NCBI GenBank assembly: GCA_018105865.1
Contig: CM030865.1
Span: 6,106,182-6,170,181, forward strand
Length of the DNA stretch: 64,000 nt
Reading direction: 5' to 3'
Origin: Metaphire vulgaris
Lineage: Eukaryota > Annelida > Clitellata > Crassiclitellata > Megascolecidae
The stretch's first letter is position 1, and every line of letters begins with the position of its first letter. Position numbers and translations under genes: made by a program. Positions 327 through 52,766 of the stretch are shown here, one piece after another. The notes under the pieces were generated by a model. The model ran no database searches. It saw only the letters and a list, made by a program, of their open reading frames with translations, and was not told the origin of the DNA.

Positions 327-485
327 CTGAAAAACTGGTCGAAGACTGAGTAGAAACAGAACTCCCAGAAGACAATTGGCCAGAACTGGTAACTCCTGTC
401 GAGGTTTGAGTAGCCGTATAACTTTCAATCGATTTCGGGCTTGTTGTTGTTGCAGTTTCGCCACTCGTAGTCGCAGTAGCTGATG
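327..485 (-). CDS. Linker exon of DOMON unit 15 (unit continues off the left edge)
   Basis: A 159-bp Ser/Thr-rich linker exon, acceptor gtttcag, donor CAG|gcaatt. Its reading frame is open, with SIESYTATQTSTGV. The intron to its left (1-326) is partly unlike the other units: a segment around 180-300 with tgacccccca and similar GA/CA-rich sequence replaces the usual one, though positions 1-120 still resemble the standard intron. The 179-bp exon of unit 15 is expected just beyond position 1. Confidence 0.75.
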
Positions 486-3400
486 CTGAAACACACAGGT
501 GACAGAAATTACTTGAATACATACCGCATATATAACAGATTAGAGTCAATAGTTTAATACGTCTTTTAGCGGTAGTCGGACAGTAGAAAGACTATAGCTG
601 TATATTATGAAGATCATGTAATTCTCACGCATGACTTGGTTATACCGAATGAATCAGTTTCTAACCGATTGCTCCGCCAGTTATGCAGATTTTAGTCGTT
701 GATGCCGTGGGTGTCGTGTAATGTCTACTAATGACGCCATTTGTCACTGATCCACCTCCGACGGGAAACAAGAAATAGTAGCAATCGGTCTCGGTGAGGT
801 TATAGTCGTTTGTATCCGTTGAGATGCGATTACGTGAGAAAGTCATCGTAAGATATCCGTTTTGATTGGTGAAACTGGTGTTCCAGAAGTTTTGAATTGC
901 ATCTCTCGAAGGACTTTGGTATCGAAATGCAATCCAGCTGAAACAAAGTTCTTTAATGGTGTAACTAAAGATGTAAATTCGACGTCAAATAACCTCATAT
1001 GAGTTACATGAACATGTTGTTATTTTTCTTGCATATGATCCAATCAGATGATTCATCGACTATTTAGGCGAAAATTTGACTGATTTAACTTGAAGATTTG
1101 AAAATATGTTAAACGGCCTGGAAAGTGTAATTGACACTAAACTGACCCGTCAACGATCACAGGCAAACCGTTGCTGTCGATGAATCCATAGGCGACATCA
1201 ACATTTTGCTACAAAGAACGAAAAATGATGCATATAAAGAGCTCTTGTCTTGCGACTCGCCGTGGTTTGAATATAAAACGACAGCTTGAAAGTACATAAT
1301 ACATTAACAGCTTAAGTAAAAACAAATTTCAGCGGCATGCAGCAGAGTGGAAGTAAAATATCAAATTATGGTCGCTTTTCGCAAAAAAGTCCGACGTGGG
1401 CTTCGTACATAAACACCGCATTAGTGCATATTTCCCATTCTAAAATTATTTTCAGTGAAGATTTATAACCGTTGCAGCCATTAGAAGAAAAGCAATCTAT
1501 CTGATAAAAGAAAATGATAAACCATAAGCATACTGAAATGGGGCATGGTGACAAAACGTCATTATCCTCACTCATCTAATGCCGGGAAAAATCAAAGTAT
1601 TAAGATAGGAAATAAATGTGAAAACCATGGAAAGTTTTTTTACTGTAGGTCTCAGTGAAAAAAGGTTATTAAAACGAAAAACGGATCTAAGAAAATATCG
1701 AAAATTTATTTTGAAAAACGATCTGTAAAGTCTCGAAAAGAAAAGCATCGGAAGAGTCTTCAGCATAGGAAAAGAAAAGCAAAGGGTGACATTCACTGCG
1801 AGAAGAGAAAATGTGCACCAGATGAACCTGAATATAGAACTATCGCTCGTAATCAGTGAGATCTAACAAACAGATTAATTTCAATGCAAAGACTTTAATA
1901 CCATGTATGGTTCCGGCGCAAATCCAATGGCCGTCCAAGTATCCGGCGCTTGTCTTGCTGTGATTGTGAATGTAATGGCGTCATTCGTTGAACTGACGAG
2001 CCATGATGCTTTGTATTGACACGAAGAAGTTACACTGCAGTTGGCAGGTGACATCCATTCGCCATAACCTCCCATATTGCCTGTTGTTATTCACAATTTT
2101 CCGTCATGTGAGATACAAGTACCAAATATTGGCTGATTAAAAATCACAGTGCAATGAGATGCATGTATAAAATTGGAACGTCACATCCGTGTGGAGGTCG
2201 TTTGGAGAAATTCAACCGATAAAGATTCTACATGAAAACCTTTTTGCGAAGCAGCAATGTTTCTTAAAAATAACGAGAACTTTCAAATGACAGAAATCTC
2301 AGAAAAATGCTAAAATGATTTCAAAGGCAGTATAGGAATGAATTCTTTTAAGAGATTACAACTCAGATGTTTTCAGCACTATGAAAAGACGTATAAGTAA
2401 AATTGCCTGAAAAACTTGTCGAAGACTGAGTAGAAACAGAACTCCCAGAAGACAATTGGCCAGAACTGGTAACTCCTGTCGCGGTTTGAGTAGCCGTATA
2501 ACTTTCAATCGATTTCGGGCTTGTTGTTGTTGCAGTTTCGCCACTCGTAGTCGCAGTCGCTGATGCTGAAACTCACAGGTGACAGAAATTAATTGAATAG
2601 CCTATATACTGCATATATAACAGATTAGGTTCAATAGTTTAATTCCCCGGCTTGTAGTAGTCAGACATTAGAAAGACTATAGCTGTATATTATGAATATC
2701 ATGTAATTCTCACGCATGACTTGGTTATACCGAATGAATCAGTTTCTAACCGATTGCTCCGCCACTTATGCAGATTTTAGTCGTTGATGCCGTGGGTGTC
2801 GTGTAATGTCTACTAATGACGCCATTTGTCACTGATCCACCTCCGACGGGAAACAAGAAATAGTAGCAATCGGTCTCGGTGAGGTTATAGTCGTTTGTAT
2901 CCGTTGAGATGCGATTACGTGAGAAAGTCATCGTAAGATATCCGTTTTGATTGGTGAAACTGGTGTTCCAGAAGTTTTGAATTGCATCTCTCGAAGGACT
3001 TTGGTATCGAAATGCAATCCAGCTGAAACAAAGTTCTTTAATGGTGTAACTAAAGATGTAAATTCGACGTCAAATAACCTCATATGAGTTACATGAACGA
3101 ATGTTATTTTTCTTGCATATGATCCAATCAGATGATTCATCGACTATTTAGGCGAAAATTTGACTGATTTAACTTGAAGATTTGAAAATATGTTAAACGG
3201 CCTGGAAAGTGTAATTGACACTAAACTGACCCGTCAACGATCACAGGCAAACCGTTGCTGTCGATGAATCCATAGGCGACATCAACATTTTGCTACAAAG
3301 AACGAAAAATGATGCATATAAAGAGCTCTTGTCTTGCGACTCGCCGTGGTTTGAATATAAAACGACAGCTTGAAAGTACATAATACATTAACAGCTTAAG

Positions 3401-6400
3401 TAAAAACAAATTTCAGCGGCATGCAGCAGAGTGGAAGTAAAATATCAAATTATGGTCGCTTTTCGCAAAAGTCCGACGTGGGCTTCGTACATAAACACCG
3501 CATTAGTGCATATTTCCCATTCTAAAATTATTTTCAGTGAAGATTTATAACCGTTGCAGCCATTAGAAGAAAAGCAATCTATCTGATAAAAGAAAATGAT
3601 AAACCATAAGCATACTGAAATGGGGCATGGTGACAAAACGTCATTATCCTCACTCATCTAATGCCGGAAAAATCAAAGTATTAAGATAGGAAATAAATGT
3701 GAAAACCATGGAAAGTTTTTTACTGTAGGTCTCAGTGAAAAAAGTTATTAAAACGAAAAACGGATCTAAGAAAATATCGAAAATTTATTTTGAAAAACGA
3801 TCTGTAAAGTCTCGAAAAGAAAAGCATCGGAAGAGTCTTCAGCATAGGAAAAGAAAAGCAAAGGGTGACATTCACTGCGAGAAGAGAAAATGTGCACCAG
3901 ATGAACCTGAATATAGAACTATCGCTCGTAATCAGTGAGATCTAACAAACAGATTAATTTCAATGCAAAGACTTTAATACCATGTATGGTTCCGGCGCAA
4001 ATCCAATGGCCGTCCAAGTATCCGGCGCTTGTCTTGCTGTGATTGTGAATGTAATGGCGTCATTCGTTGAACTGACGAGCCATGATGCTTTGTATTGACA
4101 CGAAGAAGTTACACTGCAGTTGGCAGGTGACATCCATTCGCCATAACCTCCCATATTGCCTGTTGTTATTCACAATTTTCCGTCATGTGAGATACAAGTA
4201 CCAAATATTGGCTGATTAAAAATCACAGTGCAATGAGATGCATGTATAAAATTGGAACGTCACATCCGTGTGGAGGTCGTTTGGAGAAATTCAACCGATA
4301 AAGATTCTACATGAAAACCTTTTTGCGAAGCAGCAATGTTTCTTAAAAATAACGAGAACTTTCAAATGACAGAAATCTCAGAAAAATGCTAAAATGATTT
4401 CAAAGGCAGTATAGGAATGAATTCTTTTAAGAGATTACAACTCAGATGTTTTCAGCACTATGAAAAGACGTATAAGTAAAATTGCCTGAAAAACTTGTCG
4501 AAGACTGAGTAGAAACAGAACTCCCAGAAGACAATTGGCCAGAACTGGTAACTCCTGTCGCGGTTTGAGTAGCCGTATAACTTTCAATCGATTTCGGGCT
4601 TGTTGTTGTTGCAGTTTCGCCACTCGTAGTCGCAGTCGCTGATGCTGAAACTCACAGGTGACAGAAATTAATTGAATAGCCTATATACTGCATATATAAC
4701 AGATTAGGTTCAATAGTTTAATTCCCCGGCTTGTAGTAGTCAGACATTAGAAAGACTATAGCTGTATATTATGAATATCATGTAATTCTCACGCATGACT
4801 TGGTTATACCGAATGAATCAGTTTCTAACCGATTGCTCCGCCACTTATGCAGATTTTAGTCGTTGATGCCGTGGGTGTCGTGTAATGTCTACTAATGACG
4901 CCATTTGTCACTGATCCACCTCCGACGGGAAACAAGAAATAGTAGCAATCGGTCTCGGTGAGGTTATAGTCGTTTGTATCCGTCGAGATGCGATTACGTG
5001 AGAAAGTCATCGTAAGATATCCGTTTTGATTGGTGAAACTGGTGTTCCAGAAGTTTTGAATTGCATCTCCCGATGGTCTTGACCATCGATCTGCAATCCA
5101 GCTGAAACAAAGCTTTTACCGTGCAACTAAGGATGCAATTTCGACGTCAAGTAATATCATTCGAGTTACATGAACGAAGGATAATTATTGTTCATCACAT
5201 GATCAAGTCAGATGATTCGTCGCCTATTTATGTGAGAATTTGACTGATTTAACTTGAAAACTTGAAAAGACGTTAAACGGCCTGGAAAGTGTAATTGACA
5301 CTAAACTGACCCGTCAACGATCACAGGCAAACCGTTGCTGTCGATGAATCCATAGGCGACATCAACATTTTGCTACAAAGAACGAAAAATGATGCATATA
5401 AAGAGCTCTTGTCTTGCGACTCGCCGTGGTTTGAATATAAAAGGACAACTTGAAAGTACATAATACAATAACAGCTTAAGTAAAAACAAATTTCAGCGGC
5501 ATGCAGCAGAGTGGAAGTAAAATATCAAATTATGGTCGCTTTTCGCAAAGGTCCGACGTGGGCTTCGTACATGAACACCGCATTAGTGCATATTTCCCAT
5601 TCTAAAATTATTTTCAGTGAAGATTTATAACCGTTGCAGCCATTAGAAGAAAAGCAATCTATCTGATGAAAGAAAATGATAAACCATAAGCATACTGAAA
5701 TGGGGCATGGTGACAAAACGTCATTATCCTCACTCATCTAATGCCGGGAAAAATCAAAGTATTAAGATAGGAAATAAATGTGAAAACCATGGAAAGTTTT
5801 TTACTGTAGGTCTCAGTGAAAAAAGTTATTAAAACGAAAAACGGATCTAAGAAAATATCGAAATTTTTTTTAAAAAACGATCTGTAAAGTCTCGAAAAGA
5901 AAAGCATCGGAAGAGTCTTCAGCGTAGGAAAAGAAAAGCAAAAGGTGGCATTCACTGCGAGAAGAGGAAATGTGTATCAAATGAACCTGAATATAGAACT
6001 ATCGCCCGTAATCTATGTGATCGAACAAACAGATTAATTTCAATGCAAAGACTTTAATACCATGATTGGTTCCGGCGCAAATCCAATGGCCGTCCAAGTA
6101 TCCGGCGCTTGTCTTGCTGTGATTGTGAATGTAATGGCGTCATTCGTTGAACTGACGAGCCATGATGCTTTGTATTGACACGAAGAAGTTACACTGCAGT
6201 TGGCAGGTGACATCCATTCGCCATAACCTCCCATATTGCCTGTTGTTATTCACAATTTTTCGTCATGTGAGATACAAGTACCAAATATTGGCTGATTAAA
6301 AATCACAGTGCAATTAGGTGCATGTATAAAATGGGAACGTCGCATCCGTGTGGAGGTCGTTAGGAGAAATTCAACCGATAAAGATTCTACATGAAAACCT

Positions 6401-7019
6401 TTTTGCGAAGCAGCAATGTTTCTTAAAATTAACGAGAACTTTCAAATGACAGAAATCTCAGAAAGATGCTAAAATGATTTCAAATGAAGTATAGGAATGA
6501 ATTCTTTTAAGAGATTACAACTCAGATGTTTTCAGCACTATGAAAAGTCTTCAGTCGGTGCTAAACGTCTCAGCTCGTCTGATTTTTGGCTCGAGTTGTA
6601 ACGAGCACGTGACACCGTTTCTACGTGATAATCTTCACTGGCTCAGGATTGCGGAGCGCATAACCTTCAAGCGTTGCTGGCTAACATTTCGGGCGCTGTA
6701 TGACCCTTTTTGCCCCAGCTACTTATCGGGCCTGGTCATTAAGTCTACGGCGGTCGATCGGCGATCGCGGCTTCACTCAAGCAACTGTCGTCAATTGGTG
6801 GTTCCTCCTCCGTCCAAGACGGCTGTCTTCGGTGACAGATCATTCCGGAGGGGCAATCCGAGTCTGTGGAACTCTCTGCCGAAGAACGTGACAATTGTGA
6901 CCCCCTGATTTGTTTATCAAGTGCCTTAAGACGCATATGTTTAATATATCTTATAATGTTCATTGTTAAGCGCTTTTGACTCTAGTCTTCACTAGGCTTA
7001 CTGCGCTCTATAAATTGTT

Positions 7020-7058
<39 letters not shown>

Positions 7059-10000
7059 GACGTGTAAGTAAAATTGCCTGAAAAACTGGTCGAAGACTGA
7101 GTAGAAACAGAACTTCCAGAAGACAATTGGCCAGAACTGGTAACTCCTGTCGAGGTTTGAGTAGCCGTCGAACTTTCAATCGATTTCGGGCTTGTTGTTG
7201 TTGCAGTTTCGCCACTCGTAGTCGCAGTAGCTGATGCTGAAACACACAGGTGACAGAAATTAATTGAATACATACCGCATATATAACAGATTAGATTTAA
7301 TAATTTAATTCGTCTTCTAGCGGTAGTCAGGCAATAGAAAGACTATAGCTGTATATTATGAATATCATGTAATTCTCACGCATGACTTGGTTATACCGAA
7401 TGAATCAGTTTCTAACCGATTGCTCCGCCAGTTATGCATATTTTAGTCGTTGATGCTGTGGGTGTCGTGTAATGTCTACTAATGACGCCATTTGTCACTG
7501 ATCCACCTCCGACGGGAAACAAGAAATAGAAGCAATCCGTCTCGGTGAGGTTATAGTCGTTTGTATCCGTTGAGATGCGATTACGTGAGAAAGTCATCGT
7601 AAGATATCCGTTTTGATTGGTGAAACTGGTGTTCCAGAAGTTTTGAATTGCATCTCCCGATGGTCTTGACCATCGATCTGCAATCCAGCTGAAACAAAGC
7701 TTTTACCGTGCAACTAAGGATGCAATTTCGACGTCAAGTAATATCATTCGAGTTACATGAACGAAGGATAATTATTGTTCATCACATGATCAAGTCAGAT
7801 GATTCGTCGCCTATTTATGTGAGAATTTGACTGATTTAACTTGAAAACTTGAAAAGACGTCAAACGGCCTGGAAAGTGTAATTGACACTAAACTGACCCG
7901 TCAACGATCACAGGCAAACCGTTGCTGTCGATGAATCCATAGGCGACATCAACATTTTGCTACAAAGAACGAAAAAAGGTGCATATAAAGAGCTCTTGTC
8001 TTGCGACTCGCCGAGGATTGAATATATAACGACAGCTTGAAAGTACATAATACAATAACAGCTTAAGTAAAAACAAATTTCAGCGGCATGCAGCAGAGTG
8101 GAAGTAAAATATCAAATTATGGTCGCTTTTCGCAAAGGTCCGACGTGGGCTTTGTACATGAACACCGCATTAGTGCATATTTCCCATTCTAAAATTATTT
8201 TCAGTGAAGATTTATAACCGTTGCAGCCATTAGAAGAAAAGCAATCTATCTGATGAAAGAAAATGATAAACCATAAGCATACTGAAATGGGCCATGGCGA
8301 CAAAACGTCATTATCCTCACTCATCTAATGCCGGGAAAAATCAAAGTATTAAGATAGGAAATAAATGTGTAAACCATGGAAAGTTTTTTTACTGTAGGTC
8401 TCAGTGAAAAAAGTTATTAAAACGAAAAACGGATCTAAGAAAATGTCGAAATTTTTTTTAAAAAACGATCTGTAAAGTCTCGAAAAGAAAAGCATCGTAA
8501 GAGTTTTCAGCGTAGGAATAGAAAAGCAAAGGGTGGCATTCACTGCGAGAAGAGAAAATGTGCATCAGATGAACCTGAATATAGAACTATCGCCCGTAAT
8601 CTATGAGACCTAACAAAAAACAGATTAATTTCAATGCAAAGACTTTAATACCATTATTGGGTCCGGCGCAAATCCAATGGCCGTCCAAGTATCCGGCGCT
8701 TGTCTTGCTGTGATTGTGAATGTAATGGCGTCATTCGTTGAACTGACGAGCCATGATGCTTTATATTGACACGAAGAAGTTACACTGCAGTTGGCAGGTG
8801 ACATCCATTCGCCATAACCTCCCATATTGCCTGTTGTTATTCACAATTTTTCGTCATGTGAGATACAAGTACCAAATATTGGCTGATTAAAAATCACAGT
8901 GCAATGAGATGCATGTATAAAATGGGAACGTCACATCCGTGTGGAGGTCGTTTGGAGAAATTCAACCGATAAAGATTCTACATGAAAACCGTTTTCTTCT
9001 TCTTCTTCTTTCTTTCCGTCCGTCTTTCTCTATTGGGTTGGACGATTGGTCTGAACGAGTTCCTTCCACTTCTGTCTGTCTCTTGCTGCTCTGGTCATTT
9101 CGATGAAGTTCATTTGCATTTCGTTTGCATCCTCTTTTAAGTTTTCTATGCATGTTTTTCTTGGTCTTTCTTTTCTCCTTTTCCCTTCAACATAGTTGTA
9201 TAGTGCTTTCTTTGGTAGTCTTTCTTCCTTCATTCTTTCAACATGACCAAACCATTTCAGTCTTCGTTTCTGTATTGATTCGAGTTTCGTTTCTTTTTGC
9301 TCTGTCTTTTCTCTGATCGTTTCATTTCTTATTCTTTGTCTTCTGCTGACTCCTGCTATTTCTCTTAACCAGTTCATTTCTGCAGTCATTAATCTTCTTT
9401 CGTCTTTCTTCTTTATGGTCCAGCATTCTGATCCATATAATGGTATTGGTTTGACCAGTGTATTATATAGCTTTAGTTTTGTTTTCAGTGATATTTGTTT
9501 GTCTTTCCATATCTTCTGAAGTTTTCCAAATGCTGCACTTGCTAGGCCAATTCTCCTTATTATGTCTTCTTCACTTAGGCCATCTTCTGTCAGTACTGAT
9601 CCTTGGTATACGAATTTTGGTACTTGTTATATTATTTCCTCATTTAGTTTTAGATTAACTTTCCCCTTCTTGTTCCCTGTGACCATTGCTTTAGTTTTCT
9701 GTATATTTATTTTTAGCCCCAGAAACTGAATGAAACTGGAAAACTTTTTGCGAAGCAGCAAAGTTTCTTAAAAATAACGTGAATTTTCAAATGACAGAAA
9801 TCTCAGAAAGATGCTAAAATGATTTCAAATGAAGTATAGGAATAAATTATTTTAAGAGATTAAGAGTATAGAAATGAATTCTTTTAAGAGATTACAACTC
9901 AGATGTTTTCAGCACTATGAAAAGACGTATAAGTAAAATTGCCTGAAAAACTGGTCGAAGACTGGGTAGAAACAGAACTTCCAGAAGACAATTGGCCAGA

Positions 10001-13000
10001 ACTGGTAACTCCTGTCGAGGTTTGAGTAGCCGTCGAACTTTCAATCGATTTCGGGCTTGTTGTTGTTGCAGTTTCGCCACTCGTAGTCGCAGTCGCTGAT
10101 GCTGAAACACACAGGGACAGAAATTAATTGAATAGCCTATATACTGCATTTATAACAGATTAGGTTCAATAGTTTAATTCCCCGGCTTGCAGTAGTCAGA
10201 CATTAGAAAGACTATAGCTGTACATTATGAAGATCATGTAATTCTCACGCATGACTTGGTTATACCGAATGAATCAGTTTCTAACCGATTGCTCCGCCAC
10301 TTATGCAGATTTTAGTCGTTGATGCCGTGGGTGTCGTGTAATGTCTACTAATGACGCCATTTGTCACTGATCCACCTCCGACGGGAAACAAGAAATAGTA
10401 GCAATCCGTCTCGGTGAGGTTATAGTCGTTTGTATCCGTTGAGATGCGATTACGTGAGAAAGTCATCGTAAGATATCCGTTTTGATTGGTGAAACTGGTG
10501 TTCCAGAAGTTTTGAATTGCATCTCCCGATGGTCTTGACCATCGATCTGCAATCCAGCTGAAACAAAGCTTTTACCGTGCAACTAAGGATGCAATTTCGA
10601 CGTCAAGTAATATCATTCGAGTTACATGAACGAAGGATAATTATTGTTCATCACATGATCAAGTCAGATGATTCGTCGCCTATTTATGTGAGAATTTGAC
10701 TGATTTAACTTGAAAACTTGAAAAGACGTTAAACGGCCTGGAAAGTGTAATTGACACTAAACTGACCCGTCAACGATCACAGGCAAACCGTTGCTGTCGA
10801 TGAATCCATAGGCGACATCAACATTTTGCTACAAAGAACGAAAAATGATGCATATAAAGAGCTCTTGTCTTGCGACTCGCCGTGGTTTGAATATAAAACG
10901 ATAACTTGAAAGTACATAATACAAAAACAGCTTAAGTAAAATCAAATTTCAGCGGCATACAGCAGAGTGGAAGTAAAATATCAAATTATGGTCGCTTTTC
11001 GCAAAGGTCCAACGTGGGCTTTGTACATGAACACCGCATTAGTGCATATCTCCCATTATAAAATTATTTTCAGTGAAGATTTATAACCGTTGCAGCCATT
11101 AGAAGAAAAGCAATCTATCTGATGAAAGAAAATGATAAACCATAAGCATACTGAAATGGGCCATGGTGACAAAACGTCATTATCCTCACTCATCTAATGC
11201 CGGGAAAAATCAAAGTATTGAGATAGGAAATAAACGTGAAAACCATGGAAAGTTTTTTACTGTAGGTCTTAGTGGAAAAAGTTATTAAAACGAAAAACGG
11301 ATCTAAGAAAATGTCGAAAATTTATTTTGAAAAACGATCTGTAAAGTCTCGAAAAGAAAAGCATCGGACGAGTCTTCAGCATAAGAAAAGAAAAGCAAAG
11401 GGTGGCATTCACCGAGAGAAGAGAAAATGTGCCTCAAATGAACCTGAATATAGAACTATCGCCCGTAATCTATGAGATCGAACAAACAGATTAATTTCAA
11501 CGCAAAGACTTACCATGATTGGGTCCGGCGCAAATCCAATGGCCGTCCAAGTATCCGGAGCTTGTCTTGCTGTGATTGTGAATATAATGGCGTCATTCGT
11601 TGAACTGACGAGCCATGATGCTTTGTATTGACACGAAGAAGTTACACTGCAGTTGGCAGGTGACATCCATTCGCCATAACCTCCCATATTGCCTGTTGTT
11701 ATTCACAATTTTTCGTCATGTGAGATACAAGTACCAAATATTGGCTGATTAAAAATCACAGTGCAATGAGATGCATGTATAAAATGGGAACGTCACATCC
11801 GTGTGGAGGTCGTTTGGAGAAATTCAACCGATAAAGATTCTACATGAAAATCTTTTTGCGAAGCAGCAATGTTTCTTAAAAATAACGAGAACTTTCAAAT
11901 GACACAAATCTCAGAAAGATGCTAAAATGATTTCAAATGAAGTATAGAAATGAATTCTTTTAAGAGATTACAACTCAGATGTTTTCAGCACTATGAAAAG
12001 ACGTATAAGTAAAATTGCCTGAAAAACTGGTCGAAGACTGAGTAGAAACAGAACTTCCAGAAGACAATTGGCCAGAACTGGTAACTCCTGTCGAGGTTTG
12101 AGTAGCCGTCGAACTTTCAATCGATTTCGGGCTTGTTGTTGTTGCAGTTTCGCCACTCGTACTCGCAGTAGCTGATGCTGAAACACACAGGTGACAGAAA
12201 TTAATTGAATACATACCGCATATATAACAGATTAGATTTCATAATTTAATTCGTCTTCTAGCGGTAGTCAGGCAATAGGAAGACTATAGCTGTATATTAT
12301 GAATATCATGTAATTCTCACGCATGACTTGGTTATACCGAATGAATCAGTTTCTAACCGATTGCTCCGCCACTTATGCAGATTTTAGTCGTTGATGCCGT
12401 GGGTGTCGTGTAATGTCTACTAATGACGCCATTTGTCACTGATCCACCTCCGACGGGAAACAAGAAATAGTAGCAATCCGTCTCGGTGAGGTTATAGTCG
12501 TTTGTATCCGTTGAGATGCGATTACGTGAGAAAGTCATCGTAAGATATCCGTTTTGATTGGTGAAACTGGTGTTCCAGAAGTTTTGAATTGCATCTCCCG
12601 ATGGTCTTGACCATCGATCTGCAATCCAGCTGAAACAAAGCTTTTACCGTGCAACTAAGGATGCAATTTCGACGTCAAGTAATATCATTCGAGTTACATG
12701 AACGAAGGATAATTATTGTTCATCACATGATCAAGTCAGATGATTCGTCGCCTATTTATGTGAGAATTTGACTGATTTAACTTGAAAACTTGAAAAGACG
12801 TTAAACGGCCTGGAAAGTGTAATTGACACTAAACTGACCCGTCAACGATCACAGGCAAACCGTTGCTGTCGATGAATCCATAGGCGACATCAACATTTTG
12901 CTACAAAGAACGAAAAAGGATGCATATAAAGAGCTCTTGTCTTGCGACTCGCGGTAGTTTGAATATAAAACGACAACTTGAAAATGACGAGGAGTGTCGG

Positions 13001-18670: not shown

Positions 18671-18703
<33 letters not shown>

Positions 18704-24700: not shown

Positions 24701-27700
24701 ACAGTGCAATGAGATGCATGTATAAAATGGGAACGTCACATCCGTGTGGAGGTCGTTTGGAGAAATTCAACCGATAAAGATTCTACATGAAAACCTTTTT
24801 GCGAAGCAGCAATGTTTCTTAAAAATAACGAGAACTTTCAAATGACAGAAATCTCAGAAAAATGCTAAAATGATTTCAAAGGCAGTATAGGAATGAATTC
24901 TTTTAAGAGATTACAACTCAGATGTTTTCAGCACTATGAAAAGACGTATAAGTAAACTTGCCTGAAAAACTGGTCGAAGACTGAGTAGAAACAGAACTTC
25001 CAGAAGACAGTTGGCCAGAACTGGTAACTCCTGTCGAGGTTTGAGTAGCCGTCGAACTTTCAATCGATTTCGGGCTTGTTGTTGTTGCAGTTTCGCCACT
25101 CGTAGTCGCAGTAGCTGATGCTGAAACACACAGGTGACAGAAATTAATTGAATACATACCGCATATATAACAGATTAGATTTCATAATTTAATTCGTCTT
25201 CTAGCGGTAGTCAGGCAATAGAAAGACTATAGCTGTATATTATGAAGATCATGTAATTCTCACGCATGACTTGGTTATACCGAATGAATCAGTTTCTAAC
25301 CGATTGCTCCGCCAGTTATGCATATTTTAGTCGTTGATGCCGTGGGTGTCGTGTAATGTCTACTAATGACGCCATTTGTCACTGATCCACCTCCGACGGG
25401 AAACAAGAAATAGTAGCAATCGGTCTCGGTGAGGTTATAGTCGTTTGTATCCGTTGAGATGCGATTACGTGAGAAAGTCATCGTAAGATATCCGTTTTGA
25501 TTGGTGAAACTGGTGTTCCAGAAGTTTTGAATTGCATCTCCCGATGGTCTTGACCATCGATCTGCAATCCAGCTGAAACAAAGCTTTTACCGTGCAACTA
25601 AGGATGCAATTTCGACGTCAAGTAATATCATTCGAGTTACATGAACGAAGGATAATTATTGTTCATCACATGATCAAGTCAGATGATTCGTCGCCTATTT
25701 ATGTGAGAATTTGACTGTTTTAACTTGAAAACTTGAAAAGATGTTAAACGTCCTGGAAAGTGTAATTGACACTAAACTGACCCGTCAACGATCACAGGCA
25801 AAACCGTTGCTGTCGATGAATCCATAGGCGACATCAACATTTTGCTACAAAGAACGAAAAATGATGCATATAAAGAGCTCTTGTCTTGCGACTCGCCGTG
25901 GTTTGAATATAAAACGACAGCTTGAAAGTACATAATACAAAAACAGCTTAATTAAAAACAAATTTCAGCGGCATGCAGCAGAGTGGAAGTAAAATATCAA
26001 ATTATGGTCGCTTTTCGCAAAGGTCCGACGTGGGCTTCGTACATGAACACCGCATTAGTGCATATTTTCCATTCTAAAATTACTTTCAGTGAAGATTTAT
26101 AACCGTTGCAGCCATTAGAAGAAAAGCAATCTATCTAATTAAAGAAAATGACAAAGCATAAGCATACTGAAATGGGCCATGGTGACAAAACATCATTATC
26201 CTCACTCATCTAATGCCGAGAAAAATCAAAGTATTAAGATAGGAAATAAACGTGAAAACCATGGAAAGTTTTTTTACTGTAGGTCTCAGTGAAAAAAGTT
26301 ATTAAAACGAAAAACGGATCTAAGAAAATGTCGAAAAATTATTTTGAAAAACGATCTGTAAAGTCTCGAAAAGAAAAGCATCGTAAGAGTTTTCAGCGTA
26401 GGAAAAGAAAAGCAAAGGGTGGCATTCACTGAGAGAAGAGAAAATGTGCATCAGATGAACCTGAATATAGAACTATCGCCCGTAATCTATGAGATCTAAC
26501 AAAAACCAGATTAATTTCAATGCAAAGACTTTAATACCATTATTGGGTCCGGCGCAAATCCAATGGCCGTCCAAGTATCCGGCGCTTGTCTTGCTGTGAT
26601 TGTGAATGTAATGGCGTCATTCGTTGAACTGACGAGCCATGATGCTTTGTATTGACACGAAGAAGTTACACTGCAGTTGGCAGGTGACATCCATTCGCCA
26701 TAACCTCCCATATTGCCTGTTGTTATTCACAATTTTCCGTCATGTGAGATACAAGTACCAAATATTGGCTGATTAAAAGTTACAGTGCAATGAGATGCAT
26801 GTATAAAATGGGAACGTCACATCCGTGTGGAGGTCGTTTGGAGAAATTCAACCGATAAAGATTCTACATGAAAACCTTTTTGCGAAGCAGCAATGTTTCT
26901 TAAAAATAACGAGAACTTTCAAATGACAGAAATCTCAGAAAGATGCTAAAATGATTTCAAATGAAGTATAGCAATGAATTCTTCTAAGAGATTACAACTC
27001 AGATGTTTTCAGCACTATGAAAAGTCTTCAGTCGGTGCTAAACGTCTCAGCTCGTCTGATTTTTGGCTCGAGTTGGAACGAGCACGTGACACCGTTTCTA
27101 CGTGATAATCTTCACTGGCTCAGGATTCCGGAGCGCATAACCTTCAAGCGTTGCTGGCTAACATTTCGGGCGCTGTATGACCTTTTTTGCCCCAGCTACT
27201 TATCGGGCCTGGTCATTAAGTCTACGGCGGTCGATCGGCGATCGCGGCTTCGCTCAAGCAACTGTCGTCAATTGGTGGTTCCTCTTCCGTCCAAGACGGC
27301 TGTCTTCGGTGACAGATCATTCCGGAAGGGCAATCCGAGTCTGTGGAACTCTCTGCCGAAGAACGTGACAATTGTGACCTCCCCTGATTTGTTTATCAAG
27401 TGCCTTAAGACGCATATGTTTAATATATCTTATAATGTTCATTGTTAAGCGCTTTTGACTTTAGTCTTCACTATGCTTACTGCGCTCTATAAATTGTCTT
27501 AATAATAATAATAATAATAAAAGACGTATAAGTAAAATTGCCTGAAAAACTGGTCGAAGACTGAGTAGAAACAGAACTTCCAGAAGACAATTGGCCAGAA
27601 CTGGTAACTCCTGTCGAGGTTTGAGTAGCCGTCGAACTTTCAATCGATTTCGGGCTTGTTGTTGTTGCAGTTTCGCCACTCGTAGTCGCAGTAGCTGATG

Positions 27701-30700
27701 CTGAAACACACAGGTGACAGAAATTAATTGAATACATACTGCATATATAACAGATTAGATTTCATAATTTAATTCGTCTTCTAGCGGTAGTCAGGCAATA
27801 GAAAGACTATAGCTGTATATTATGAATATCATGTAATTCTCACGCATGACTTGGTTATACCGAATGAATCAGTTTCTAACCGATTGCTCCGCCAGTTATG
27901 CATATTTTAGTCGTTGATGCCGTGGGTGTCGTGTAATGTCTACTAATGACGCCATTTGTCACTGATCCACCTCCGACGGGAAACAAGAAATAGTAGCAAT
28001 CGGTCTCGGTGAGGTTATAGTCGTTTGTATCCGTTGAGATGCGATTACGTGAGAAAGTCATCGTAAGATATCCGTTTTGATTGGTGAAACTGGTGTTCCA
28101 GAAGTTTTGAATTGCATCTCCCGATGGTCTTGACCATCGATCTGCAATCCAGCTGAAACAAAGCTTTTACCGTGCAACTAAGGATGCAATTTCGACGTCA
28201 AGTAATATCATTCGAGTTACATGAACGAAGGATAATTATTGTTCATCACATGATCAAGTCAGATGATTCGTCGCCTATTTATGTGAGAATTTAACTGATT
28301 TAACTTGAAAACTTGAAAAGATGTTAAACGTCCTGGAAAGTGTAATTGACACTAAACTGACCCGTCAACGATCACAGGCAAACCGTTGCTGTCGATGAAT
28401 CCATAGGCGACATCAACATTTTGCTACAAAGAACGAAAAATGATGCATATAAAGAGCTCTTGTCTTGCGACTCGCCGTGGTTTGAATATAAAACGACAGC
28501 TTGAAAGTACATAATACAAAAACAGCTTAATTAAAAACAAATTTCAGCGGCATGCAGCAGAGTGGAAGTAAAATATCAAATTATGGTCGCTTTTCGCAAA
28601 GGTCCGACGTGGGCTTCGTACATGAACACCGCATTAGTGCATATTTTCCATTCTAAAATTATTTTCAGTGAAGATTTATAACCGTTGCAGCCATTAGAAG
28701 AAAAGCAATCTATCTAATTAAAGAAAATGACAAAGCATAAGCATACTGAAATGGGCCATGGTGACAAAACATCATTATCCTCACTCATCTAATGCCGATA
28801 AAAATCAAAGTATTAAGATAGGAAATAAACGTGAAAACCATGGAAAGTTTTTTTTTTTTTTACTGTAGGTCTCAGTGAAAAAAGTTATTAAAACGAAAAA
28901 CGGATCTAAGAAAATGTCGAAAAATTATTTTGAAAAACGATCTGTAAAGTCTCGAAAAGAAAAGCATCGTAAGAGTTTTCAGCGTAGGAAAAGAAAAGCA
29001 AAGGGTGGCATTCACTGAGAGAAGAGAAAATGTGCCTCAAATGAACCTGAATATAGAACTATCGCCCGTAATCTCTGAGATCTAACAAAAACAGATTAAT
29101 TTCAATGCAAAGACTTTAATACCATTATTGGGTCCGGCGCAAATCCAATGGCCGTCCAAGTATCCGGCGCTTGTCTTGCTGTGATTGTGAATGTAATGGC
29201 GTCATTCGTTGAACTGACGAGCCATGATGCTTTGTATTGACACGAAGAAGTTACACTGCAGTTGGCAGGTGACATCCATTCGCCATAACCTCCCATATTG
29301 CCTGTTGTTATTCACAATTTTTCGTCATGTGAGATACAAGTACCAAATATTGGCTGATTAAAAATCACAGTGCAATGAGATGCATGTATAAAATGGGAAC
29401 GTCACATCCGTGTGGAGGTCGTTTGGAGAAATTCAACCGATAAAGATTCTACATGAAAACCTTTTTGCGAAGCAGCAATGTTTCTTAAAAATAACGAGAA
29501 CTTTCAAATGACAGAAATCTCAGAAAAATGCTAAAATGATTTCAAAGGCAGTATAGGAATGAATTCTTTTAAGAGATTACAACTCAGATGTTTTCAGCAC
29601 TATGAAAAGACGTATAAGTAAACTTGCCTGAAAAACTGGTCGAAGACTGAGTAGAAACAGAACTTCCAGAAGACAGTTGGCCAGAACTGGTAACTCCTGT
29701 CGAGGTTTGAGTAGCCGTCGAACTTTCAATCGATTTCGGGCTTGTTGTTGTTGCAGTTTCGCCACTCGTAGTCGCAGTAGCTGATGCTGAAACACACAGG
29801 TGACAGAAATTAATTGAATACATACTGCATATATAACAGATTAGATTTCATAATTTAATTCGTCTTCTAGCGGTAGTCAGGCAATAGAAAGACTATAGCT
29901 GTATATTATGAAGATCATGTAATTCTCACGCATGACTTGGTTATACCGAATGAATCAGTTTCTAACCGATTGCTCCGCCACTTATGCAGATTTTAGTCGT
30001 TGATGCCGTGGGTGTCGTGTAATGTCTACTAATGACGCCATTTGTCACTGATCCACCTCCGACGGGAAACAAGAAATAGTAGCAATCGGTCTCGGTGAGG
30101 TTATAGTCGTTTGTATCCGTTGAGATGCGATTACGTGAGAAAGTCATCGTAAGATATCCGTTTTGATTGGTGAAACTGGTGTTCCAGAAGTTTTGAATTG
30201 CATCTCCCGATGGTCTTGACCATCGATCTGCAATCCAGCTGAAACAAAGCTTTTACCGTGCAACTAAGGATGCAATTTCGACGTCAAGTAATATCATTCG
30301 AGTTACATGAACGAAGGATAATTATTGTTCATCACATGATCAAGTCAGATGATTCGTCGCCTATTTATGTGAGAATTTGACTGATTTAACTTGAAAACTT
30401 GAAAATATGTTAAACGTCCTGGAAAGTGTAATTGACACTAAACTGACCCGTCAACGATCACAGGCAAACCGTTGCTGTCGATGAATCCATAGGCGACATC
30501 AACATTTTGCTACAAAGAACGAAAAATGATGCATATAAAGAGCTCTTGTCTTGCGACTCGCCGTGGTTTGAATATAAAACGACAGCTTGAAAGTACATAA
30601 TACAAAAACAGCTTAATTAAAAACAAATTTCAGCGGCATGCAGCAGAGTGGAAGTAAAATATCAAATTATGGTCGCTTTTCGCAAAGGTCCGACGTGGGC

Positions 30701-33700
30701 TTCGTACATGAACACCGCATTAGTGCATATTTTCCATTCTAAAATTACTTTCAGTGAAGATTTATAACCGTTGCAGCCATTAGAAGAAAAGCAATCTATC
30801 TAATTAAAGAAAATGACAAAGCATAAGCATACTGAAATGGGCCATGGTGACAAAACATCATTATCCTCACTCATCTAATGCCGAGAAAAATCAAAGTATT
30901 AAGATAGGAAATAAACGTGAAAACCATGGAAAGTTTTTTTACTGTAGGTCTCAGTGAAAAAAGTTATTAAAACGAAAAACGGATCTAAGAAAATGTCGAA
31001 AAATTATTTTGAAAAACGATCTGTAAAGTCTCGAAAAGAAAAGCATCGTAAGAGTTTTCAGCGTAGGAAAAGAAAAGCAAAGGGTGGCATTCACTGAGAG
31101 AAGAGAAAATGTGCATCAGATGAACCTGAATATAGAACTATCGCCCGTAATCTCTGAGATCTAACAAAAACAGATTAATTTCAATGCAAAGACTTTAATA
31201 CCATTATTGGGTCCGGCGCAAATCCAATGGCCGTCCAAGTATCCGGCGCTTGTCTTGCTGTGATTGTGAATGTAATGGCGTCATTCGTTGAACTGACGAG
31301 CCATGATGCTTTGTATTGACACGAAGAAGTTACACTGCAGTTGGCAGGTGACATCCATTCGCCATAACCTCCCATATTGCCTGTTGTTATTCACAATTTT
31401 TCGTCATGTGAGATACAAGTACCAAATATTGGCTGATTAAAAATCACAGTGCAATGAGATGCATGTATAAAATGGGAACGTCACATCCGTGTGGAGGTCG
31501 TTTGGAGAAATTCAACCGATAAAGATTCTACATGAAAACCTTTTTGCGAAGCAGCAATGTTTCTTAAAAATAACGAGAACTTTCAAATGACAGAAATCTC
31601 AGAAAAATGCTAAAATGATTTCAAAGGCAGTATAGGAATGAATTCTTTTAAGAGATTACAACTCAGATGTTTTCAGCACTATGAAAAGACGTATAAGTAA
31701 ACTTGCCTGAAAAACTGGTCGAAGACTGAGTAGAAACAGAACTTCCAGAAGACAGTTGGCCAGAACTGGTAACTCCTGTCGAGGTTTGAGTAGCCGTCGA
31801 ACTTTCAATCGATTTCGGGCTTGTTGTTGTTGCAGTTTCGCCACTCGTAGTCGCAGTAGCTGATGCTGAAACACACAGGTGACAGAAATTAATTGAATAC
31901 ATACTGCATATATAACAGATTAGATTTCATAATTTAATTCGTCTTCTAGCGGTAGTCAGGCAATAGAAAGACTATAGCTGTATATTATGAATATCATGTA
32001 ATTCTCACGCATGACTTGGTTATACCGAATGAATCAGTTTCTAACCGATTGCTCCGCCACTTATGCAGATTTTAGTCGTTGATGCCGTGGGTGTCGTGTA
32101 ATGTCTACTAATGACGCCATTTGTCACTGATCCACCTCCGACGGGAAACAAGAAATAGTAGCAATCCGCCTCGGTGAGGTTATAGTCGTTTGTATCCGTT
32201 GAGATGCGATTACGTGAGAAAGTCATCGTAAGATATCCGTTTTGATTGGTGAAACTGGTGTTCCAGAAGTTTTGAATTGCATCTCCCGATGGTCTTGACC
32301 ATCGATCTGCAATCCAGCTGAAACAAAGCTTTTACCGTGCAACTAAGGATGCAATTTCGACGTCAAGTAATATCATTCGAGTTACATGAACGAAGGATAA
32401 TTATTGTTCATCACGTGATCAAGTCAGATGATTCGTCGCCTATTTATGTGAGAATTTGACTGATTTAACTTGAAAACTTGAAAAGATGTTAAACGTCCTG
32501 GAAAGTGTAATTGACACTAAACTGACCCGTCAACGATCACAGGCAAACCGTTGCTGTCGATGAATCCATAGGCGACATCAACATTTTGCTACAAAGAACG
32601 AAAAATGATGCATATAAAGAGCTCTTGTCTTGCGACTCGCCGTGGTTTGAATATAAAACGACAACTTGAAAGTACATAATACAATAACAGCTGAAGTAAA
32701 AACAAATTTCAGCGGCATGCAGCAGAGTGGAAGTAAACTATCAAATTATGCTCGCTTTTGGCATAGGTCCCACGTGGATTTGGTACTTAAACACCGCATT
32801 AGTGCTTACTCCTCATTCTGAAATTATTTTCAGTAATGATTTATAACCGTTGCAGCCATGAGAAGAAAGCAGGCTATGTGATAAAAGAAAATGATAAATC
32901 ATAAGCATACAGCAGTAGGGCATGCTGACGAAAACTTCATTGGTCACACTCATCTAATGCCAGGTCAAATCAAAGTATTAAATTTGGAAATAAATGGGAA
33001 ACGATGTAAAGTCTATAACTGCACGACTACAATACAGAAATTATTGAAACGAAAAAGAAAGGACATCTAAGAAAATATAGAAAGATTATCATGAAAAACG
33101 ATCCGTCGAATGCAGGTAAAGTTTCGAAAAGAAAAGTGTCGGGGAAGTGGCTTCAGCATTGGAAAGGATAAGCAAAAAGAAGCATTCACTGCGAGAAGGA
33201 AAAAAGTGTTTCGAATGAACCTGGATATAGAACTCTCGATCATAATCGCTGAGATCTAACAGACAGATTAATTTTAATGCAACTACTTCCAATACCATGG
33301 TTGGTTCCGGTGCAAATCCAATGGCCGTCCAAGTATCCGGCGCTTGTCTTGCTGTGATTGTGAATGTGATGGCGTCATTCGTTGAACTGACGAGCCATGA
33401 TGCTTTGTATTGACACGAAGAAGTTACACTGCAGTTGTCAGGTGACATCCATTCGCCATACCCTCCCATATTACCTGTTACGATAAGCGTGTTTCATCAT
33501 ACATTTTTCAAAATGTTTCGTCTATCCTAGAGTCATATGAGAGAAGTACAAAACATTCTCTTATTATAAATCATGATGTAAGGATGTATTTATACGATGA
33601 TATGTGACTGAGTGGAAACAATATTTGATGATCTTGAGTATGTCGTTTCAAGAAACTCTGCCGATAAGGGTTTTGCATAAAAGATCAGCTGCGCAACAGC

Positions 33701-36700
33701 TGTATTTCTCTAAAAAATAGTACGACTTTGAAATGGTCATAAGAGCAGGAACATTCTAGAATGTTTTCACAGTCATTATCGGCATGAATGTTTTCAAATG
33801 ATTGCCGCCCTATTGTTATCAACTGTATGACGAGGTGTAAAGGTAAAATTTACCTGGAAAACTGGTTGACGACTGAGTGGAAACAGAACTTCCAGAAGAC
33901 AATTGACCAGAACTGGTATTTCCAGTCGAGGTTTGAGTATTCGCTGTCGTTCCAGTTGTCGCTGTAGCTGTTGCTGAGACACAGACGGATGACAGAAATT
34001 AATTGAATACATAGTTATAAGTTTTTATTCATTTCAAGAATTCTAGTCGCTTGGAAGCGCTATTAGGTTGTTATCGTGCAAGGTCGCAAGAATATGAATT
34101 ATCATGATGAGCATGAAATTCATTAGCCATACTCTCCTATATTGCGTGTTCAAAAATAGGGTTCACTGACATTTGCACGACCGACATTTGCGCGACGATA
34201 AAAGCGCGAACGTAAAATCGACAATTGCGCGCCGACATTAGCGCGTATTTCGAGGAAGCACGAATTGCGCTGTAAATTAAAAGTCATCCGTGCTTTAGTA
34301 ACTATAGTCTTAATCATAACCCAAAATCAAACCCAAAATAACCCAAAATCAAACCCTAACTCTAACCCTAACCCTAACCTGTATTATTATATAATGTCGC
34401 GCAAATGTCGTTCGCGCATTTGACGGGTCACCGTTATCGTGCAAGGTCGCAAGAATATGAATTATCCTGATGAGCATGAAATTCATTAGCCATACTCTCC
34501 TATATTGCGTGTTCAAAAATAGTGAGCGTCTAATCGCCTATTGGTTTAACACGAAAAGCGGTGAATCTCGTCACACATTTGCAGTAGACGCACATTCGTT
34601 TTCTCTAGATGAAGTTTGAACAAGGCGTCATGATGACCATGATTGTGAAATTTCAATCTGTTCTATTTGCGTTTGGTCAGTAACCGAAAAATGTTAAGGC
34701 TTTTTAGAAAAAGAAAATGTAGGCTTACAGATCGTAATCGTATGTCAGGATAAGATAATTAAAAGAATTCAGCAAACTAGACTATCAATTTTATATGGCG
34801 GTGTAAATTTAGAAATAGGTGCAAAGTTCTAAACACAACTACTAACTCTGTTTCCGAATCTTTTAAAATCCGACTATAGACCCATAAGATTTCTACAAGT
34901 TCTCTTTCGAATACTGAACAGAACCTCGTTAACTATGTCTCATATTTAGTAGTTTACTCTACAGTAATGTGAATATAGAGAGGTACAATAATTATCTCGT
35001 TTATCACAATAATAAAGGACAAAGAAAGAAATAAACTGTCATCTGAAGTATTGCGTCGCTGTGCAACCTCACCTATGTCTTGGGTAACGCATAAGTAGGT
35101 AACCGAAAGGTAGTTTGTCTGACTGGTCTGTTTCGGACAGAAAATATTCGCAATGGCAGTTGATCGGTAGATTTCAGCTTGGATGTCGCACGACCTCTTT
35201 CCCTCGCAGCTGCTAAGTCTTGATAGGAGCGTGGCGTCGTTAACCGTGAAGACGTCGAATTGCTGGAGCGAGGAACTGTCGGGAACGTACGCGTCATCGC
35301 CAAGATCGTAGCAGCACAGGGGATGTACTTTGTAGGCAGCGTCTACGATGTGCAGCGATTCGCCCTCGCCGCACCACGAAGTGTTGCCGAACGACTGTCC
35401 CACGCATCTTCCGATGGTGTGCTCTATCGAGAAGAGATCGATAAATAAATTCGAATCGCATTCAAATTTAGAATCTGTCACGCTTCTGTTGCCGATACTT
35501 GGAAAGAAAAGTGGAGTTTGTTTTCGAATTCTGTGGAGTTTCTAATAAAATTTGCAACATGCGGTCTCTTGCTAAGATAATGAAACGGTCAAGTGAAACT
35601 TTTGTCAAGAAAATTATTAATTTGTGATTGGTCCTAATTGACCTCTGTGATTTTGACCTCTATTTACACGATTGGTAGTTTTGTGCGTCAATCAAAGGCA
35701 AATATTTCGTTGTCGTTAAGGGCTCTTCATTAAATTGGAAGACACGCGTTTGAAAAATTAAAACTCACACGCTATTTATTGGTCATACACCTGACACTGG
35801 CCATTCAAATTTGATCGAAATGAAACCATTTAAAGGACGGTTTAGCATTTTCCAACCTGAAGTGATAGGTGCTGGGCAGGTTCTGTTGATTTGGTACTGA
35901 AAAACTGTTTCGGAATCATCGAACTGATTTTCAGGGCTCAGGTCATCATAGCTGGTATGTAGCCAACACGCGTCGTCGTTTACCAGGTCGAAGTCTGCGG
36001 CGACGCAGTTGGGCATTGAAAGACAGACCGCAAAGCAATCGTAGTCGGTTCTGTAGTCGGAAAAAGCTATTCCGTTGAGTGAGTGAATCTGTGGAACGAC
36101 TATCCATTGAAACTGACAATCTGAAACAACGAGAAATACAACAGGAATTATGCCATCATGCAATCGTGGCTCTGAAAATCACTATTTTTCAGCAACTAAA
36201 GACGATTTGACCAGGGATGGTTCCAAGTTGGGGATGACTGGGGATGCATCCCCTCACCGATCCACCCAAAATGCGTCTTCAATGGAAAATGATCGGATAA
36301 AAACTGTTGATGACTTTTGTTTGTTAGTCTTTTTCAGGGTTTACCGGGCCCGGACCGCTACATGTCGCCGGTCCCATGTGTATGACCTTTTTGCTTGTCA
36401 GCCTTTACACGGTTTAGCGGGCTCCCTACAAGTCGCCGTATTCCTAGAAAGGCATTGCATCTCCCCACCAACTTCCTGGAAATTCATTGCATCCCCCACC
36501 TAGAGTTCTTGGAACCGCCACTGGAGTTGGCTTCAAAAATAAAATTTTAATGTACAACGAGACAGCTTCCTCAAATAAGCGGCGCAATTTCCCCAAAGAT
36601 ATGGATCATAATTTCAACCCCAGCAAGTGGAATTCCGTACTGCAGAACTTGTTGTCAAATAGAAATTAATCTAAAATATTGTTTAACCTGAGTTGTTTCT

Positions 36701-52270: not shown

Positions 52271-52766
52271 GGTCCATCCATGTAGTACGTACGCACCGAG
52301 GGGGAGTGTGTTGAGATTTAGGCGATTTTGCGTACGGAAGCGTACGGGGAGGGGGGTCACGACTGAATTTTTACGTAGGCCTACGCACAAATTTCAAATG
52401 TATAAATAGGTATATTCACACAAACATTTGGTTTGAGCACAATAACTTTCTCACCGTCAAACAAAGGGTCCCGTGAATTGTTCCCACGGTTATTTAAATA
52501 ATTGGTCGGCAAACTTCGCGGAGGGAGAGCGTTTGTCGGGAAGAGGAGGGGGTTGACCAGAATGCTCGAGCGCAGTGGCCTATTAAAATAGAACTATCCT
52601 ATTACTTTAATATTAAACAAATGCTTTTTGACTATGGCTAAAAATTAAATTTCACCGTGCGGGGGTTGCTAATTTGTACGTAGGCATGGGAGTAAAAATG
52701 TACGGTGTGCAACAGGGGGAGGGGTGAGAATATGCCTTTTAACGTACGTACTATATGGATGGCCCC
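52271..52766. mobile_element. Inverted-repeat element, CCATCCAT..TAGTACGTACG ends
   Basis: The left end ggtccatccatgtagtacgt and the right end, reversed, ggggccatccatatagtacg match over about 25 bp. The interior has tacgtaggc-like repeats and G-rich stretches. The ends resemble those of 58581-58960, suggesting related families. Confidence 0.7.

Follow-up and report, generated by a model that had tools for sequence, protein, structure and literature searches.

A tandem array of 14 DOMON units on mucin-like linkers in the annelid Metaphire vulgaris, and its possible place in a large secreted mosaic protein

Heme ligated by a methionine and a histidine, as in the cytochrome domain of cellobiose dehydrogenase (CDH), which is partnered by a flavin dehydrogenase, and in DOMON domains of the CYBDOM type, favours one-electron transfer or heme holding over oxygen chemistry. 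The ligand of DOMON domains in general is a sugar or heme (PMC4846438; this and later citations refer to portions of the respective papers). The closest described systems are the CYBDOMs, in which usually one DOMON is fused to a membrane cytochrome b561 domain, as in Drosophila melanogaster CG8399 (PMC10691727) and Arabidopsis HYP1 (PMC10784544); the stand-alone b-heme DOMON of AIR12, which lacks b561 (PMC10784544); and the CDH cytochrome domain, which has a DOMON-like fold and a Met/His-ligated b-heme (PMC10691727; PMC10784544). Here we describe a locus of the annelid Metaphire vulgaris in which the minus strand carries 14 DOMON units in head-to-tail order, each behind a Ser/Thr-rich linker. 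The locus was analysed in a stretch of 64,000 nt, hereafter the window (CM030865.1; G000:C34:6106182-6170181), together with 40 kb to its left and 10 kb to its right (114 kb in all); negative positions denote bases left of the window edge. Genome-wide searches covered 728 Mb in 246 contigs.

The array runs from position 33973 down to 327. Each unit consists of a Ser/Thr linker exon (A) followed by DOMON exons B, C and D, and the exon lengths of 159+179+62+272 nt give 224 residues in 12 of the 14 units. This length had originally been assigned to every unit, and two depart from it. Unit 1 (32046-33973) has a linker exon of 120 nt instead of 159 nt and therefore a 40-residue linker and 211 residues in total. 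Unit 4 (25301-27700) has 673 nt, with one extra T in exon C (25782-25844), where four T stand in place of the three found in the 13 other units; the model frame shifts and a stop results. This extra T could be a true lesion or an assembly error in a homopolymer. The units of 224 residues are unit 2 (29967-31865), unit 3 (27881-29786), unit 5 (23223-25120), unit 6 (21142-23042), unit 7 (19062-20961), unit 8 (16474-18881), unit 9 (12358-16293), unit 10 (10286-12177), unit 11 (7417-10101), unit 12 (4830-7236), unit 13 (2751-4644) and unit 14 (666-2565). Behind them lies a 15th linker exon (327-485) with a GC donor in phase 1 and no DOMON, so that 15 linker exons accompany 14 DOMONs; it fits the mucin and PAN-like exons left of the window.

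The original prediction had placed at least 14 near-identical DOMONs on mucin-like linkers between 327 and 33973. These limits are exact, the first linker exon starting at 33973 and the last ending at 327. The count stands at 14, and no further near-identical copy was found within 40 kb beyond the array or among the 49 candidates scored in a unit search of the whole genome. Near-identity holds for units 2-12, whose exons differ by at most 1.6% in a multiple alignment, and less well for units 13 and 14 (2.7-3.7% from units 2-12) and unit 1 (3.8-6.0% from the others, with 6.0% in the pairwise comparison with unit 2). As had been proposed, the linkers are mucin-like, judged by their repeated Ser/Thr-rich sequence (60% Ser+Thr in the 53 residues of unit 2); O-glycosylation is putative. 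The array is beyond chance, given 14 head-to-tail copies with equal exon limits and a paralog elsewhere in the genome with equal intron phases.

The Pfam DOMON profile (PF03351; cut-off 32.7 bits) matched all three unit types scanned (units 1, 2 and 14) at E 2.3e-22 to 4.7e-22 and 78.9-79.9 bits, which bears out the domain assignment; the 11 other units, near-identical to these, were not scanned singly. In an exon-by-exon reading, Cys15, Cys21, Met60, Cys133, His153 and Cys165 (numbered within the DOMON part of the unit) are present in all 14 units, and the earlier statement that the Cys, Met and His positions are kept throughout was thus correct. Met60 and His153 are 93 residues apart. The same spacing separates Met286 and His379 of CG8399 (PMC10691727), and the corresponding distance in HYP1 is 84. 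In HYP1, a b-heme was placed on M90 and H174 in a model, and changing M90 or H174 impaired localisation (PMC10784544); since the variants were mislocalised, the ligand role was not tested directly there. Met and His are conserved among the aligned animal CYBDOMs and are not found in sugar-binding DOMONs or in DBH (PMC10691727), and the crystal structure of the DBH DOMON, which lacks these ligands, shows neither a sugar nor a heme site (PMC4846438). Judged only by spacing and by the paralog, Met60 and His153 are predicted axial ligands at CDH/CG8399-like positions. We infer that each DOMON is of the b-heme type, with heme held between Met60 and His153.

The array differs from these systems in its architecture. 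Compared with a CYBDOM, it has 14 DOMONs and no b561 match in the locus. With 14 candidates scored, the genome-wide b561 search gave eight matches; on this contig the closest one is 187 kb away from the window and about 165 kb away from the outer end of the locus, and the gene is therefore not a CYBDOM as far as tested. Domains of the CuH/CuM (DBH/MOXD1) type were absent from the exons scanned with Pfam, no genome-wide search having been made for them. AIR12 shares with the array the absence of b561; it is unlike the array in being a single plant domain with a glycosylphosphatidylinositol anchor, and mucin linkers or lectin-type modules are not mentioned in the portions of the paper that describe it (PMC10784544). 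The cytochrome domain of CDH is likewise a single domain, of a fungal enzyme, and no sequence match between it and the units was found.

A paralog supports both the domain assignment and the exon model. A genome search with one unit gave 43 matches, 41 in the array and two in exons of a single paralog (G000:C21:4130943-4133020), which is 46% identical to the unit over 170 residues and matches Pfam DOMON at E 2.2e-21 and 76.8 bits. The paralog keeps the Met, the His and the four Cys, with a Met-His spacing of 95. Its exon C has 62 nt, its intron phases of 0 and 2 are those of the array, and its donors are ATG/GTAAAA and GG/GTAAGC (slashes mark exon boundaries); exon C length, phases and donors therefore provide independent support for the splice model. 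About 6 kb upstream of the paralog lies an EGF-like exon, a candidate part of the same gene.

Intron phases in the array are 1 (A/B), 0 (B/C), 2 (C/D) and 1 (D/A). In 14 of the 15 copies the linker exon has 159 nt with phase 1 at both sides, so that skipping it would leave the frame unchanged. Unit 1 alone has GT as the donor after exon A; the other 14 copies have GC and read CAG/GCAAGT in six cases and CAG/GCAATT in eight. The 14 GC donors follow one another (window 327-31865) as an amplified family of GC-AG introns. Other exon limits were considered and rejected. A shorter exon C (ending AAC/G GT) joined to an exon D starting from GCAG/AT would require an acceptor that is absent from units 13 and 14, and it is also ruled out by the paralog, whose exon C of 62 nt ends at GG/GTAAGC. 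An exon D donor at ATAA/GTGGC was dismissed because five of the 14 units have AACT at that place.

Constraint on the coding sequence is seen where diverged introns flank a conserved exon. Between units 1 and 2, intron A differs by 34.7% and intron B by 16.9%, and exon B between them by 4.5% (8/179 sites vs 229/1013 in the flanking introns; Fisher p 4.2e-10), with three of the seven changed codons being replacements. Between units 2 and 13, intron C differs by 14.6% and exon C not at all (0/62), and exons C+D together differ at 9/334 sites vs 30/206 in intron C (p 4.5e-7). Codon analysis covered the DOMON parts of 13 units, with unit 4 left out, and 11 pairs were computed for the rates of replacement (dN) and silent (dS) substitution. 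The dN/dS ratio is 0.14 to 0.28 in six pairs (1-2, 1-7, 1-9, 2-11, 2-12 and 9-11) and 0.57 in the pair 1-13; among the variable codons, 13 carry replacements and 11 silent changes only. On these comparisons, exon B is under constraint. A coding array is supported by the conservation of exon B between diverged introns, with less contrast in unit 13, and by a paralog with the same intron phases.

Further exons surround the array; those within the window are on the minus strand. PAN-like exons lie at 41013-41288 (PAN_1 19.6 bits) and 35857-36120 (E 0.02, 15.2 bits), and a SUEL-like exon at 35073-35423 (SUEL_Lectin 13.1 bits), each with phase 1 at both sides. PAN and SUEL lectin domains in front of the array had been proposed in the original prediction. 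The PAN-like label is supported by PAN_1 matches in nine of nine exons (E up to 1, best 7.1e-4); these matches are weak, with the first below the cut-off of 21.4 bits. All six SUEL-like exons match SUEL (PF02140) at E up to 1 (best 0.0093) and share Cys, 'HIV.A.YK' and 'CEG...C' columns; with the first at 13.1 bits, well under the cut-off of 31.4, the SUEL lectin label is likely but unproven. A candidate first exon at 49545-49980 has a signal-peptide-like start, MNRTFAFCFLLISVVYIFANTSEA, recognised by hydrophobicity only, followed by a Cys-rich segment that matched no Pfam family, and ends at a strong-looking phase-1 donor, CAG/GTAAAA. In a scan of 60000 to 41350, 11 of 146 ATG frames exceeded the hydrophobicity limit and three of these had a phase-1 GT (52277, 49980 and 47674); the 49980 start combined the top hydrophobicity with the longest frame of the three. 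This exon may open the large gene, or it may encode a separate small secreted protein.

Past the array, between -3979 and -22359, we found a Ser/Thr exon, seven PAN-like and five SUEL-like exons, of which the SUEL-like exons at -6280 to -16782 carry Ser/Thr tails, and a long Ser/Thr exon with a stop. The 75 exons use 74 AG acceptors, 60 GT donors and 14 GC donors. If unit 4 is omitted, they form a continuous frame of 5,196 residues that starts with Met and has its only stop at the end; including unit 4 would bring it to about 5,420. The gene is probably larger than originally predicted, comprising a head exon, PAN-like and SUEL-like exons, the array, and further PAN-like, SUEL-like and mucin exons, with its end 22 kb beyond the window. 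From the signal-peptide-like exon and the phase-1 joints between all modules, one secreted protein is plausible. The 5' exon, the exons past the array and outside the window, the unit 4 frameshift, the GC donors and the mosaic history described below are features additional to those of the original prediction.

We propose that the locus is a coding tandem array within a large animal gene for a secreted, mucin-like mosaic protein with 14 b-heme-type DOMONs, to which we assign a probability of about 50%. The predicted order is a signal peptide and Cys-rich head, two PAN-like modules, one SUEL-like (lectin-type) module and 14 linker-DOMON units, probably followed by further modules of both the PAN-like and the SUEL-like kind and by a long Ser/Thr tail. 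The product would be a secreted glycoprotein in which DOMON beads sit on O-glycosylated linkers and one or both ends carry lectin-type modules. Most likely, such a lectin-anchored string would retain its many redox beads, each loaded with heme, within mucus, glue or extracellular matrix, where the beads could accept or hand on single electrons, or hold heme. At 53 residues the linkers exceed what a fixed wire would allow, which favours many independent redox or heme sites held in a gel, glue or matrix. More tentatively, and at less than even odds, the lectin-anchored mucin may be a fourteen-heme b-type cytochrome of ~5,400 residues whose unit number varies from one individual to another by unequal exchange, which would give mucus or glue a tunable redox or heme-holding capacity.

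Several observations weigh against this proposal. Long flexible linkers speak against a fixed heme-to-heme wire, and in PDB searches no solved heme DOMON matched by sequence. In the assembly the frame of unit 4 is broken, and eight of the 14 GC donors have the weaker-looking form CAG/GCAATT. Constraint is uneven along the array: exon A differs by 4.4% between units 2 and 13 and the next intron by 0.9%, over whole units, exons and introns contrast weakly in the pairs 2/13 (p 0.018) and 2/11 (p 0.043), and dN exceeds dS in four of the 11 pairs, all involving unit 13 (1.45 to 2.55, on few sites). The high ratios of the unit 13 pairs are due to five replacements between residues 85 and 92. Outside the array, the SUEL scores fall under the Pfam cut-off and the PAN matches are weak, rival 5' start exons at 52277 and 47674 each have a phase-1 GT, and splice sites were chosen by hand to suit phase 1. 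Phase-1 modules join in frame regardless of the gene to which they belong, so the open 75-exon frame is no proof of one gene.

An alternative that we regard as possible, at somewhat worse than even odds, is that two or more neighbouring genes are present: the array gene would end soon after the 15th linker, and the outer PAN-like, SUEL-like and mucin exons would belong to one or two tandem paralogs sharing a PAN-PAN-SUEL front. That order is found three times in the locus, read-through of the last GC donor meets a stop after eight codons, and polyA-like signals occur at -550, -739, -806 and -1582. In a scan from the array to -21 kb, nine of 165 ATG frames exceeded the hydrophobicity limit and a single one of these, at -4163, had a phase-1 GT; it is in frame with the third PAN exon and carries a hydrophobic stretch that would suit a second gene start. 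This stretch, however, crosses the polypyrimidine tract before an acceptor and may be accidental. A phase-1 Ser/Thr exon (-3979 to -4077) before the third PAN exon fits the 15th linker and argues for continuity, as does the presence of only one Cys-rich first exon across the 114 kb analysed.

The DOMONs could also form a heme-free structural or glycan-binding string used in adhesion or cross-linking, with Met and His as relics of descent. DOMONs bind sugars or heme, the DBH DOMON crystal shows a site for neither (PMC4846438), and the lectin-type and mucin surroundings would suit an adhesive. We nevertheless consider a heme-free string unlikely, in view of the retention of Met and His in 14/14 units and the paralog, residues that are lost in sugar-binding DOMONs and DBH (PMC4846438; PMC10691727). 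The array might also be decaying or mis-assembled, its copy number inflated by the assembly or its units not expressed, and the unit 4 frameshift, the GC donors and several units less than 0.5% apart could be taken in that sense; with 13 of 14 frames intact, units bearing their own insertions and substitutions, and a conserved exon B flanked by diverged introns, we regard this as improbable.

Proteins with more than one DOMON are on record, with two DOMONs in 19 of 888 insect cytochrome b561-DOMON proteins (PMC10691727). Among the matches listed in the open-licence literature (titles and abstract openings), no DOMON array of comparable size is described, and as far as this literature reaches the architecture is unusual, as originally proposed. 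The DOMON itself is well known; an array of 14 on mucin linkers would be new. A protein database gave no relative at E 1e-3 for the unit (919 candidates), the PAN-PAN-SUEL front (220) or the paralog DOMON (38), a negative that says little since the animal share of the database is uncertain. Searches of the PDB by sequence or profile found no DOMON, SUEL or PAN relative, only unrelated weak matches, and NCBIfam profiles gave no match.

DOMON genes have been recorded in settings that may be instructive. In the Hydra basal disc, transcripts for DOMON, galactose-binding (SUEL-type) lectin and peroxidase are enriched together (PMC5080974), a reelin-DOMON protein is present in abalone nacre (PMC6003135), and three DOMON genes rise during coral settlement (PMC3204972). 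These adhesive, shell or settlement-type settings resemble that proposed for the array, and the portions of the papers cited describe no array for these genes. By analogy, an adhesive or matrix role would be reasonable.

The best-known extracellular proteins with many hemes are bacterial, and their hemes are of the c type and covalently bound. If our proposal is true, the M. vulgaris protein would exceed every DOMON protein in our sources several-fold in the number of DOMON hemes per chain, and an animal string of b-heme DOMONs joined by mucin linkers would represent a novel means of keeping redox centres or heme outside cells. The array is also a case of a folded redox-type domain that has multiplied in the manner of a mucin repeat, with diverged introns beside a conserved exon. 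Thanks to the array, one recombinant unit suffices to test the heme question.

Intron comparisons and insertions bear on how the array arose. Introns differ by at most 1.4% among units 2-8, by 2.5-4.1% among units 9-12 and by 2.2-4.4% between these two groups; units 13 and 14 differ from units 2-12 by 4.4-6.6%, and unit 1 from all others by 16-19%. Units 1 and 2 differ by just 0 to 1% from the end of intron B on. Diverged in its first half and near-identical in the rest, unit 1 is therefore mosaic, with a breakpoint in intron B. In units 13 and 14 (666-4644), residues 85-92 read FRYQSPSR in place of DRWSRPSG (variant segment FRYQSPSRD), with five residues changed together beside the diverged intron C, which resembles conversion from some further unit not seen here.

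Units 4, 8 and 12 carry an inserted fragment at one place in the A-B intron (26978-27448, 18151-18630 and 6501-6908; 96.7-99.8% alike). Its presence in every fourth unit indicates that part of the array grew in four-unit blocks, and the array probably grew by unequal exchange, partly in such blocks. Copy number may vary among individuals. By eye, the fragment resembles a long interspersed nuclear element (LINE); Pfam gave no match in its three frames. Unit 11 has an A-B intron insertion unlike that of units 4/8/12. A separate LINE-like insertion of ~2 kb in the B-C intron of unit 9 contains a plus-strand reverse-transcriptase frame (12884-14371; RVT_1 E 2e-28).

Left of the window, in L009 (about 7560-7641), a membrane-helix-like stretch, QIIIIVVVFTIVVIIKLIF, and a second stop continue the frame of the last Ser/Thr exon past its stop; the stretch is perhaps a lost or alternative membrane anchor.

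Other DOMON genes were found in the genome. Of the six matches in a Pfam DOMON search, three lie in the array, one in the C21 paralog and two in distant exons on contigs C3 and C26. These DOMON-like exons (L002 and L003; minus strand, near 1500-1680) are diverged and were not recovered with a unit as query, so that other DOMON genes exist although no other near-identical copy was found. By eye, we take the L002 exon to be of the DBH/MOXD type and the L003 exon of the ferric-reductase/CYBDOM type. The L003 exon ends in GWVAVGFSSDDKM, then GT, which places its intron after the Met at a position identical to that in the array and suggests an old intron.

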